From assembly GCA_021647985.1 (NCBI GenBank), contig JAKITQ010000007.1, positions 1 to 64,000 on the forward strand: 64,000 nt of DNA, given 5' to 3'. This stretch comes from Flavobacteriaceae bacterium. GTDB lineage: Bacteria > Bacteroidota > Bacteroidia > Flavobacteriales > Flavobacteriaceae. This document shows, piece after piece, positions 54,787 to 59,406 of this stretch. The notes beneath the pieces were generated by a model that had not been told where the DNA came from, did not search any database, and was given only the letters and a program-made list of their open reading frames with translations. The position numbers and the translations under genes were made by a program. How positions within the stretch are numbered: position 1 is the stretch's first letter; each line of letters opens with the position of its first letter.

Positions 54787-55257
54787 TTATTTTTGTTCGA
54801 TCATTGGTATCTCCATGGCAATCTTTGCTGAAACCAAGGCTTCAATTTTATTCTCTGCCTGAAAATACTTTACAGCCTTAGCTGCTGGTAAGATCTTTTT
54901 AAACTTTTTATAATAAGATTTTTCAAGTTTGGCTGATTCTGTTTTAAACTGAAGCATCAGATTCCAGATCTCATCCGCTTTTTCATCACTTAAACTCTCA
55001 AAATTATCTGAAAACTCTTTAATTGCTTTAATTCGATTATTTTGAACTATGTACATTTTTTCGTTATACTCATTATACAAGCTCCAAAAAGGTTCCGATT
55101 CAGATTCAGTTAATTCCATAGCTTCTGCAATGGCTGCTTTTTTCTCCGTTTTTAAAACCGATCGCATTACCTCAATATAATCATCCGAGGTTTGTGCATA
55201 AATTCCCGTGGATAGAACTAATAGGAAAATTAATGTAATTGCTTTTTTTGTTGTCAT
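54787..55257 (-). CDS. Periplasmic helical protein of unknown function
   Basis: A 156-aa protein with signal peptide (AITLIFLLVLSTGIYAQ) and an all-helical mature part (EPFWSLYNEYNEKMYIVQNNRIKAIKEFSDN; LEKSYYKKFKKILPAAKAVKYFQAENKI) resembling the Spy/CpxP-type chaperones in length and pattern, although the LTxxQ motifs are not visible. It is just downstream of the DUF1254 remnant. Confidence 0.65.
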   Translation of the reverse strand: MTTKKAITLIFLLVLSTGIYAQTSDDYIEVMRSVLKTEKKAAIAEAMELTESESEPFWSLYNEYNEKMYIVQNNRIKAIKEFSDNFESLSDEKADEIWNLMLQFKTESAKLEKSYYKKFKKILPAAKAVKYFQAENKIEALVSAKIAMEIPMIEQK

Positions 55258-55280: not shown

Positions 55281-55603
55281 TTATTTATATGAACTATTTC
55301 TTTTTTTAAAGTCATCAGGACGTCATGTTTAATCGAAAAATGTTTTTGTTGTACTGTACAATCTCAATAAAGTAAACCATCCTTTTCCTGGGGCTGTTTT
55401 TAGCCAGTTAGATTCAGAAACTCCTTCAGGTAACTCAGATCCAAATTATCTGTTGGATACCCATTTTCAAAATTATGTGTAAAGTCAAGTGAACCTATTC
55501 TGGTTTGAAATGCATTCTTTGAATAATTTTGACTTTCATTTTTTATCACAACTAGAAATCAAGATTCTTAAATAAATAGTAATACTAGTTTATATATTTT
55601 CAT
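55281..55603 (-). pseudogene. Deletion remnant of a DUF1254/DUF1214 lipoprotein gene
   Basis: Not in the ORF track. The minus strand shows MKIYKLVLLFI (55603), a shifted lipobox-like ILISSCDKK, then FQTRIGSLDFTHNFENGYPTD (the DUF1254 start) and, in another frame, ESNWLKTAPGKGWFTLLRLY (the DUF1214 end) followed by STTKTFFD, TAA, T, TGA and RPDDFKK. The last part reads as FFDKTWRPDDFKK with Lys and Trp codons turned into stops. Only about 320 of an expected 1,400 bases remain, with several frame breaks. It fills most of the 437-base gap before the sulfatase. Confidence 0.8.
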
Positions 55604-55694
55604 AATTAAAAACAATGTATTTATTTTTTATATAAATGTGATGAGCTTATCTGTTAAGAATTTTTTACAGATAAGCCTCATACAATTAACAGTT

Positions 55695-57203
55695 TTAATT
55701 TTGTGGCTTTTTGCTCAAAGTTTTTAATACACCATCTATCCCTAAAGAACTTCCACCAACAGGAGGGAATTCTTTAAATGTTGCTAAAAATTCTCCTACA
55801 TAAGTTTGTGCAGGCACAAATAACCACATATTCTCTGCATACCACCTTGTATACATGGAAGATTCCCAAGATACCTCATATGGATCTGCTCTTAAATTAA
55901 TTACTAATGGCCAAGCCGGTGTTTTTCTAAATGCTTGGCTGATATTCCCTTCCATATAAGTAAAGTGGAGTTTCCAATTCTTATATCTAACAGCATTTAA
56001 ATTACCGCCCTGATCAAAAAAGAATATTTCATTTCTTGGAGACTCTTTAACTTCACCTTTAAAATAAGGCATCATATTATATCCATCCAAATGAACTTTG
56101 AAATTTTTTCCATTTGCCTTATAACCTTTTAATAATTTTTCTTTTACATCGGGCACACCAGCTGCAGCTAAAAGAGTTGGCATCATATCTTCATGAGAAA
56201 AAATGTCATTATACTTGGTTCCTGGCTTAATAACTCCAGGCCAACGTATAACACAAGGTGCTCTAAAGCCACCTTCCCAAGTAGTTCCTTTTTCTCCCCT
56301 AAAAGGAGTAGTTCCACCATCTGGCCACGTAAATTTTTCTGCACCATTATCTGTAGAATACATGATTATAGTATTATCAATAATACCCAATTCTTCTAAT
56401 TTTGCGAGTACTTTTCCAATAGCTTTATCGTGCTCTACCATACCATCTGGGTATAGTCCAATTCCGGTAACGCCTATACTCTCATCTTTTAGATGTGTCC
56501 AAACATGCATACGTGTAGCACTTAACCATACAAAGAAAGGTTTACCAGCTTTGTGGGCACGTTCGATAAAATCAATTGCAGCATTTGTAAATACATCATC
56601 AATAGTTTTCATTCTTTCTTTTGTTAATGGACCTGTATCTTCAATTCTACCATCTGCAAATGAATGTAATACCCCTCTTGGTCCAAATTCTTTATGAAAT
56701 GCTGGATCTTTAGGATAATAATAAGATTCTGGTTCTTCTTCTGCATTTAAGTGATATAAGTTTCCATAAAACTCATCAAAACCATGATTAGTTGGCAGCA
56801 TGTCATCTCTATCGCCTAAATGATTTTTACCAAATTGCCCTGATGTATAACCTTGATTTTTTAATAACTCAGCGATTGTTGGTTGATTGGCTTTAATTCC
56901 TTGTTCGCCACCTGGCATACCAATGGTTAATAACCCTGTTCTAAAAGGGTGTTGTCCTAAAATAAATGCTGCTCTACCTGCTGTACAAGATTGCTGTGAA
57001 TACCAATCGGTAAACATACCGCCTTCATTAGCAATTCTATCAATATTTGGAGTTTGGTACCCCATCATTCCATGGTTATAGGCACTAATATTACCCCAAC
57101 CTATATCATCTCCCCAGATGACAAGAATGTTAGGTTTTTTTTGTGCAAAAAGCCCTGTTATTAATAGGAACATCATTGCGGTTGTAAATAATGGTTTTTT
57201 CAT
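55695..57203 (-). CDS. Secreted arylsulfatase
   Basis: A 502-aa sulfatase with a signal peptide (FTTAMMFLLITGLFAQ). Metal ligands lie in NILVIWGDDIGWG; the formylglycine site is QQSCTAGRAAF (Cys73, CxAxR form), and GKNHLGDRDD and YSTDNGAEKF hold the other catalytic residues. It hydrolyses sulfate esters; the substrate (glycan, steroid-like or small molecule) is not shown. It needs a formylglycine-generating enzyme, which is not in the window. Neighbours are not polysaccharide-locus genes: no SusC/D, no glycoside hydrolases. Confidence 0.93.
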   Translation of the reverse strand: MKKPLFTTAMMFLLITGLFAQKKPNILVIWGDDIGWGNISAYNHGMMGYQTPNIDRIANEGGMFTDWYSQQSCTAGRAAFILGQHPFRTGLLTIGMPGGEQGIKANQPTIAELLKNQGYTSGQFGKNHLGDRDDMLPTNHGFDEFYGNLYHLNAEEEPESYYYPKDPAFHKEFGPRGVLHSFADGRIEDTGPLTKERMKTIDDVFTNAAIDFIERAHKAGKPFFVWLSATRMHVWTHLKDESIGVTGIGLYPDGMVEHDKAIGKVLAKLEELGIIDNTIIMYSTDNGAEKFTWPDGGTTPFRGEKGTTWEGGFRAPCVIRWPGVIKPGTKYNDIFSHEDMMPTLLAAAGVPDVKEKLLKGYKANGKNFKVHLDGYNMMPYFKGEVKESPRNEIFFFDQGGNLNAVRYKNWKLHFTYMEGNISQAFRKTPAWPLVINLRADPYEVSWESSMYTRWYAENMWLFVPAQTYVGEFLATFKEFPPVGGSSLGIDGVLKTLSKKPQN

Positions 57204-57252: not shown

Positions 57253-57756
57253 TCACTCTTTTTCTTTAATGACTTTAACATTATACTTGAATAATCCGCT
57301 TAATTTATCCCAGAAATCTCCTCCTAATATAAAAAAGCTGGAAACAAATAGTATATCTGAGCTTATCGTCCACCAAATAGGAAGTTGTTTAAAAAATGGA
57401 AGATATAACTCTAAATAAGGTTGCGTAATTCCAATAATAATTGGTAAACTAAACATAACCAAGCCTATACGGTACCTAGTCAAGCTTACTTCATCTGAAG
57501 GTGCGAATATCTTTAAATAATTTAATGCCTTATTTTTTAAAAATTCAAATCCTTGTTTACCCATTATTGCAACTGCAATAATCATAAAGAGTTCCGGTAT
57601 ACCAAATGCAAGTAAGCCAGATAACACTCTTTTATAAGAGATAGGTAAATCAGAATCAACTACTAAAGGTATTAATAGCGGACTCATAAAGCCTACCACT
57701 AAAACAATAGTACCAATTACCAATTTTGACTTTGATGTATCTGATGATTCAAGCAT
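57253..57756 (-). CDS. Four-helix membrane protein (transporter-suffix-like)
   Basis: About 167 aa, four hydrophobic helices (LVIGTIVLVVGFMSPLLIPLV; IPELFMIIAVAIMG; IGLVMFSLPIIIGITQPYLELYL; ISSDILFVSSFFILGGDFWDKLSGLF). The last phrase resembles the transporter-suffix family, a small membrane protein group of unknown function. I choose the ATG at 57756 (MLESSDTSK) over 57789, which would overlap the upstream gene more. Cotranscribed with the preceding membrane gene. Confidence 0.7.
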   Translation of the reverse strand: MLESSDTSKSKLVIGTIVLVVGFMSPLLIPLVVDSDLPISYKRVLSGLLAFGIPELFMIIAVAIMGKQGFEFLKNKALNYLKIFAPSDEVSLTRYRIGLVMFSLPIIIGITQPYLELYLPFFKQLPIWWTISSDILFVSSFFILGGDFWDKLSGLFKYNVKVIKEKE

Positions 57757-58420
57757 TACTTTTTTTATTTTCTGTTTGATTTGATCCAATCTTTTTTAAG
57801 ATATATCCTAAAGGAATAATTATTAAAAAGGAGAGTGTCCAAGCAGCAGGGCTTATCGATGCAAAAGGCAAGGAGAATAAAGCTGCAATTGGCTCTGGTA
57901 AAATTTGATATAATATAGTTCTTTCTTCATCTTCATTGATTTGATCAGAAGTCAGATTATTCTTTCGGGCATATATCCAGTTATAGACTCCAATAAATCC
58001 GGCAAGAGCCAAAAACACACTTTCCATCTGTAAAGCCAGAGTCATTCCTTCAAATTCCAAATCAAATCGAACAAAATAAAGGTATAACATCAAGCAAAAC
58101 ATTTGAATAACAGCCAAGGTTGCATGCATTGGGGAACTTCTTACCAGATTTCCCAACTGTTTATTGAACTGGATCCAATAAGTAATGATCATAATTAGCC
58201 CAACAACAATTAGAACAAGTTGCATGATATGTTCACTAAATATTTGAGAAAGAGAATGATATTCTAATTCAGGATCATCAGGGCGTGGTAATATCAAAAA
58301 GGCTTGAAAAATCATTAAAGCGTAAAGCACATTAATAATTACCTTGAGGCTATTTAATATACCAACTCCTCGCTCTAATTCAGCTTGAGTATTATCCTTT
58401 ATTTTAAAGAATTTTATCAT
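57749..58420 (-). CDS. Multipass membrane protein (TMEM175-like architecture)
   Basis: A 223-aa protein with about six helices. The middle (IITYWIQFNKQLGNLVRSSPMHATLAVIQMFCLMLYLYFVRFDLEFEGMTLALQM) is reminiscent of the TMEM175/DUF1211 channels, but the FSD motif of their first helix is not present, so the family is uncertain. It sits between the barrel protein and the transporter-suffix-like protein; overlapping reading frames suggest coupled translation. Confidence 0.6.
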   Translation of the reverse strand: MIKFFKIKDNTQAELERGVGILNSLKVIINVLYALMIFQAFLILPRPDDPELEYHSLSQIFSEHIMQLVLIVVGLIMIITYWIQFNKQLGNLVRSSPMHATLAVIQMFCLMLYLYFVRFDLEFEGMTLALQMESVFLALAGFIGVYNWIYARKNNLTSDQINEDEERTILYQILPEPIAALFSLPFASISPAAWTLSFLIIIPLGYILKKIGSNQTENKKSNA

Positions 58421-58461
58421 CTTATTTATTTCTATTTTGTTGCGTTTATTACTTTAAATTA

Positions 58462-59331
58462 TTACTTTTTCCCAACCGGCATTGTATATGAAAGGTTAAT
58501 TCTAAATGAATTTTTCACTGCCGGACCTTGCCAATCTTCATAAATAGCACTGGTTCTATACTCCGCATAGGCATTCCAGGATGCTTTTTCCAAAACCCAC
58601 ACTTTACCGAATCGTGCGCCAAGTGGTAAATAAAACCCTTTGGTATTCCAATCATATAATGCTACAATATCGGCAGTTTGAACATACATTCCGGTGGTGC
58701 CAAACCGATAAGCTATGAAAGGTGCAATACCTAATGGGTTTATATTTGATGTACTTCCATCTTCGGATGCAATCAGAGGAATTGGTTGCAACGCATTTGG
58801 ATCAACACTCCGCCATGATTGTGTAAAAAGCAATCCATAAAACCATTGTCCACTATTGTTAACTATTGCAGCACTAAAACCATAACCCCATTCATCTTTT
58901 GAAACGCCTTCACTACCAGGTGTCGTAATCATAGGGCCAATACCTGCTCTACCATTACCCCAATTGGTAGCATTCGGTATGATCAAAGCAAAAATTTCTG
59001 TATTACCAAAACCTGACTTTTTTTTCTGTAGATCTTCGTAATGACGAATAGTTATTCGAGGTAGGATGGTCATCGATTTTAATGGAACCGGTGCTACAAC
59101 ACGAAGTTGTAAATAATTATCAAGTCCAAGAGTACGATCGGTTATACCGTCACTCAATTTCCCAGTGTGATAATCAGGCATAGTTTGATAGGCTAACTGG
59201 AAACTCCATTGTGTTGCGGTTGCATCCATTGCTTGTGATGCACGGTCTTGTTCTGCGTTATTTTCCTCCTCTTCTTGTGCAAAAACCATAAAGGAAATTA
59301 GCATAAAAAATAGTAATGATATTTTTTTCAT
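58462..59331 (-). CDS. Outer-membrane barrel (porin-like) protein
   Basis: A 289-aa protein with signal peptide (ISLLFFMLISFMVFAQ), an acidic start (EEEENNAEQ) and barrel strands: QWSFQLAYQTMPDY, MTILPRITIRHYE, WFYGLLFTQSWRS, NPLGIAPFIAYRFGTTGMYVQT and the final SFRINLSYTMPVGKK. I choose the ATG at 59331; the track start at 59394 adds an Asn-rich stretch translated from low-complexity DNA. It is similar in type to the barrels that accompany DUF1254 and sulfatase genes elsewhere. Confidence 0.72.
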   Translation of the reverse strand: MKKISLLFFMLISFMVFAQEEEENNAEQDRASQAMDATATQWSFQLAYQTMPDYHTGKLSDGITDRTLGLDNYLQLRVVAPVPLKSMTILPRITIRHYEDLQKKKSGFGNTEIFALIIPNATNWGNGRAGIGPMITTPGSEGVSKDEWGYGFSAAIVNNSGQWFYGLLFTQSWRSVDPNALQPIPLIASEDGSTSNINPLGIAPFIAYRFGTTGMYVQTADIVALYDWNTKGFYLPLGARFGKVWVLEKASWNAYAEYRTSAIYEDWQGPAVKNSFRINLSYTMPVGKK

Positions 59332-59406
59332 TTTCTTAAATTTAATTATATTATTATTTGTGTTATTATTCTTTTTATTATTATAGTTTAACATATTATA
59401 TATAAT

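Follow-up and report, generated by a model that had tools for sequence, protein, structure and literature searches.

The window, which is the whole analyzed stretch of 64,000 nucleotides from a Flavobacteriaceae bacterium, includes an intact sulfatase gene on the minus strand. In the gap between this gene and a small coiled-coil ORF, no open gene was found by reading the frames, and the gap is occupied by a remnant of the DUF1254/DUF1214 family. The features around the remnant are as follows; types A and B are the two gene types assigned by the typing described below.

54787-55257, minus: small coiled-coil ORF
55302-55603, minus: DUF1254/DUF1214 remnant, from direct reading of the frames
55302..55445, minus: 3' remnant (last 48 codons) of a DUF1254/DUF1214 gene assigned to type A, from PF06742, the C-terminus profile, DNA identity to the G021 gene, and typing
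55445..55448, minus: putative deletion junction; the Asp codon of GYPTD ends at 55448, and A-gene sequence is recognizable from 55445
55446..55603, minus: 5' remnant of a DUF1254 gene assigned to type B, from the frames, the N-terminus profile, identity to L109 gene B, and typing
55622..55676, minus: hairpin between the sulfatase stop and the remnant (RNA fold -18.7 kcal/mol, z -5.3)
55695..57203, minus: sulfatase gene, intact, directly upstream of the remnant (PF00884, 175 bits)
57253..59394, minus: TM178, TM223, and OMP310 (no Pfam family), syntenic with two tandem DUF1254 genes in L216
59407..63372, minus: HupE/UreJ, DUF3604, and PPIase; the same set is near DUF1254 genes in L106

Lesions and family identity of the remnant

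On the minus strand, the 5' part of the remnant starts with an ATG at 55603 and reads MKIYKLVLLFI before a TAA that stops the leader after 11 codons. LRILISSCDKK follows from 55571 in a second frame, and NESQNYSKNAFQTRIGSLDFTHNFENGYPTD at 55540-55448 is back in the frame of MKIYKLVLLFI, so that the leader contains two frame changes besides the stop. Two bases (AA) separate this piece from the next one, FGSELPEGVSESNWLKTAPGKGWFTLLRLYSTTKTFFD, which opens at 55445, 2 bases past 55448, in a frame different from that of NESQNYSKNAFQTRIGSLDFTHNFENGYPTD. It is followed by TAA (55331-55329), Thr, TGA (55325-55323), and RPDDFKK, which extends to 55302. The two longest open pieces, of 38 and 52 codons, use different frames. 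In comparison with intact relatives, the remnant carries several disabling lesions that define it as a pseudogene: the leader stop, the frame changes, a large deletion with a frame change, the TAA, and the TGA. The original prediction had reported both stops near the C-terminus, as replacements of Lys and Trp; the TGA does replace Trp, but the residue at the TAA is Gln (CAA) in the closest intact relatives, not Lys.

The genome is a draft of 80 contigs with 87% completeness, which gives some room for an assembly or sequencing artefact that joined and broke an intact gene. Such an artefact is very improbable, as five or more distinct lesions of several kinds are packed into 300 bases, and every flanking gene is open. 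It is still less probable that the stretch is not dead but encodes a short expressed gene or a regulatory RNA. The strong hairpin that adjoins the remnant might point in this direction, but its position immediately after the sulfatase stop agrees with a role in ending the sulfatase transcript, the open pieces are short and in different frames, and the remnant is not conserved in relatives. The hairpin at 55622-55676 probably ends the sulfatase transcript ahead of the remnant; no strong T run was found there on the minus strand, and the terminator scan did not call it.

The two pieces come from both ends of the DUF1254/DUF1214 family. In the whole-genome scan, PF06742 (DUF1214) matched the C-terminal piece with 25.0 bits and the e-value 5.5 × 10−5, at profile positions 79-111 of 112 only; the score is at the curated Pfam cut-off of 25 bits, and the piece is thus a member of DUF1214. 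With a family profile built from the C-termini of 43 relatives, this piece was the sole significant match among all six-frame pieces of the window (e-value 1.2 × 10−17; next 0.37). The N-terminus profile ranked the N-terminal piece first among all window pieces (e-value 0.047; next 1.7), and 15 of its 20 residues are identical to the intact gene B of locus L109. At the DNA level, the C-terminal piece is 78% identical, over 149 bases and gapless, to an intact gene of 519 codons from a species of the same genus (G021). No match to PF06863 (DUF1254) was found in the remnant, which stops before this domain begins; in the genome scan the domain appears only on contig C11. The original prediction, that both ends of the family are readable here in different frames, is thus confirmed by direct reading and by profiles.

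The same prediction had called the product a lipoprotein. An in-frame signal peptide with a lipobox is absent, since the ISSC motif is out of frame with the start codon. ISSC-like motifs occur in intact Flavobacteriaceae relatives, and this out-of-frame motif is the sole hint that suggests a lipoprotein.

Origin of the two ends

A scan for the C-terminus across one genome per species (84,980 species) yielded 80 loci. Three among the best of them, L109, L110, and L111, each contain two tandem DUF1254 genes. The first tandem gene is the match for the C-terminus of the remnant (62-73%), and the other one for its N-terminus (73-75%); in these loci the best C-terminal match is adjoined by the gene that gives the best N-terminal match. 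The G021 gene was dropped as a model of the whole parent gene, as its N-terminus does not match the remnant.

On a tree of 166 genes, the two genes fall into well-separated clades, A and B, with the support of 0.90 and 0.96 and inner clades at 1.0. Genes of the two clades are often arranged in tandem. Separate profiles of the N-end and the C-end were built for each clade, and each member was typed against profiles built without it. The ends were concordant in all 47 intact genes for which both could be typed; two further genes lack an N-end that could be used. The start of the remnant is typed as B over A by +16.9 bits, and its end as A over B by +14.9 bits. Membership in a clade requires both ends of one type, and the remnant belongs to neither. 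The clades were defined on full-length sequences including the ends, which favors agreement of the ends in intact genes, but the contrast with the remnant is still clear. In a less clade-bound test, the ratio for discordance between the C-terminus and the N-terminus was 0.597 for the remnant, below all 90 intact genes whose N-terminus matched well. The pieces of the remnant are short (20-31 and 48 residues). The lowest intact ratio, 0.61, is probably from a wrong-frame ORF, and the next is 0.64.

The original prediction assumed a single gene that lost its middle, and this would correspond to an internal deletion of about 1.2-1.3 kb, from codon ~50 to codon ~450. This has the simplest geometry: the pieces follow each other in the right order on the same strand, two bases apart. 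The B-type gene of G347, from Flavobacteriaceae, also has some C-terminal features in common with the remnant; the spacing of its PEGxxESNW is the same and the identity is 56%, yet it is typed as B by 22 bits. The combination of a B start with an A end was seen in 0 of the 47 typable intact genes, and the remnant exceeds all 90 in C-terminal discordance. The loss of the middle of one gene is therefore unlikely, while keeping some weight. Because a B start and an A end are never mixed in the typable intact genes, the two ends most likely derive from two neighboring related genes, as judged from these sequence comparisons. Thus, the large internal deletion and the later stops of the original prediction stand, but its two ends would not come from one gene.

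Proposed parental gene pair, deletion, and age of the loss

The remnant is best explained as a pseudogene derived from a tandem pair of type-B and type-A DUF1254/DUF1214 genes, which were fused by one deletion and then decayed; the probability of this reading is estimated at roughly 0.8. Behind the sulfatase gene, and in the same direction, the ancestor would have had first a type-B and then a type-A gene. One deletion of about 2.7 kb would have brought the final 48 codons of A behind codon ~50 of B, in a different frame. Later point mutations and small indels would have generated the two stops near the end as well as the leader stop and frame changes, and the remnant would now produce no protein and have no function. 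We infer the single event at the junction, the size of the deletion, and the absence of expression from these comparisons.

Intact pairs in the B-then-A order are present in L114 (Echinicola arenosa), L117 (Thermodesulfobacteriota), and L213 (another Bacteroidota family; types assigned by best match). The order in L114 is sulfatase-sulfatase-B-A, with the pair directly behind the sulfatases. The points that match the two sides of the junction are 2785, 2715, and 2675 bp apart in L114, L117, and L213, respectively, and the estimate of about 2.7 kb is based on these three distances. The A-then-B order also occurs, in L109, L111, L121, and L133. No intact B-A pair was found at this locus in any closely related genome, and the parent arrangement was reconstructed from distant relatives. 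Type-B genes were sought in 397 genomes of the family, 22 of the genus, and 395 of the phylum, and the nearest are ~45-51% identical.

An intact copy of the lost genes was looked for in the same genome, as the original prediction had proposed. Contig C11 (L006:6561-13716) includes an intact set composed of a sulfatase gene, two tandem DUF1254 genes, and two outer-membrane protein genes. The two DUF1254 genes are intact, but on the tree they belong to neither A nor B, and therefore they are not copies of the lost pair; the search of this draft (80 contigs, ~87% complete) gave no intact gene of either type. The genome also has 15 sulfatase genes without internal stops. Two broken sulfatases were observed at G000:C31:9672-10142 and G000:C32:2072-2442; one has three stops inside, and the other is split in two with a stop.

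The loss had been described as recent, with a comparison of sister strains proposed as a check. The two nearest sulfatase orthologues, in the sister species G003 and G009, show 93% and 85% protein identity. At the same locus in both genomes, outer-membrane protein genes directly follow the sulfatase orthologue, and neither a DUF1254 remnant nor an intact copy was found, so this locus gives no date for the loss. Three candidates for further remnants were rejected: G008:C243 and G012:C220 are at contig ends, and G016:C240, for which the stretch retrieved is truncated, probably is as well. Between the remnant end and the G021 gene, there are 11, 4, and 17 differences on the three codon positions, and between two intact A genes there are 10, 5, and 23. 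The pattern of the remnant is still much like that of a gene under selection; therefore, the loss is probably not old, as far as these small numbers of differences indicate, and a recent loss is plausible.

The sulfatase neighborhood and related systems

The gene content around the remnant is shared in part with other loci. L216, from a genome of the same family, has sulfatase-TM178-DUF1254-DUF1254-OMP310-TM223 in a row, with identities to the window of 59% for the sulfatase, 52% for TM178, 70% for OMP310, and 34% over part of TM223. By best match, its two tandem DUF1254 genes both resemble B, rather than one B and one A. In L106, DUF1254 genes are grouped with a sulfatase, HupE, PPIase, and DUF3604; in L109, A and B are found with DUF3604, an outer-membrane protein, and two sulfatases. 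These gene sets indicate that DUF1254 genes, usually two, are partners of such modules, and they support the original proposal that this module once had a DUF1254 partner. The remnant gives a hint about an uncharacterized module in which sulfatase, DUF3604, HupE, small membrane proteins, and an outer-membrane protein recur beside a tandem pair of DUF1254 genes of distinct types. The DUF1254 genes of the sulfatase module are best treated as a pair, and the correction from one gene to two matters for reconstruction of the module; otherwise, this is an ordinary pseudogene. The literature search found no paper joining DUF1254 with sulfatases, and among titles and abstract starts no paper was found on the function of DUF1254, DUF1214, DUF3604, or VPA0735.

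Similar decay in two other loci shows that losses of this kind are not unique. In L110:376-1000, from a Deltaproteobacteria MAG, a type-B gene breaks off after ~130 codons and continues, in another frame, as a DUF1214 end (PEGAHESNWRRTVPGKGWFVLF), directly after the end of an intact type-A gene; the end piece scored 33.8 vs. 32.0 bits in the clade typing, too close to assign A or B. In L144:7662-8144 (Chloroflexota MAG), a membrane-protein ORF is fused in frame with the final 40 codons of a type-A gene; the fusion lies between two sulfatases, and an intact type-B gene is nearby. Both copies, which come from unrelated phyla, show the same sort of decay through internal deletion, and they are independent of the event in the window because the junctions differ. 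A and B might even belong to the sulfatase module as an obligate pair of genes that is lost as a unit, with one deletion taking both here. This is quite doubtful; if true, the partly deleted copies in L110 and L144 would be further cases in which the pair was lost together or one gene after its partner. As a separate observation, fragments with only the DUF1214 C-terminus are present in L134:7893-8156 (Sphingomonas plasmid) and L171:836-1021 (Desulfosarcina MAG).

The tandem A/B pairs of L109, L111, L114, and L213 consist of the same two types as the remnant. Such pairs often stand beside sulfatases, but the 19 kb read from L213 contain none. The sulfatase neighborhood is common to the window, L109, and L114, and DUF3604 to the window and L109. 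Those four pairs are intact, whereas the pair of the window would be fused and dead. One known relative is VPA0735 of Vibrio parahaemolyticus (PDB 2P3Y, 3VB9), a two-domain protein with PF06863 and PF06742. The intact type-A gene of L109 aligns with VPA0735 across most of its length (e-value 8 × 10−78). The 3' piece of the remnant corresponds to the end of the DUF1214 domain. In comparison with VPA0735, the window keeps only ~50 residues per end, and the whole DUF1254 domain and most of the DUF1214 domain are gone.
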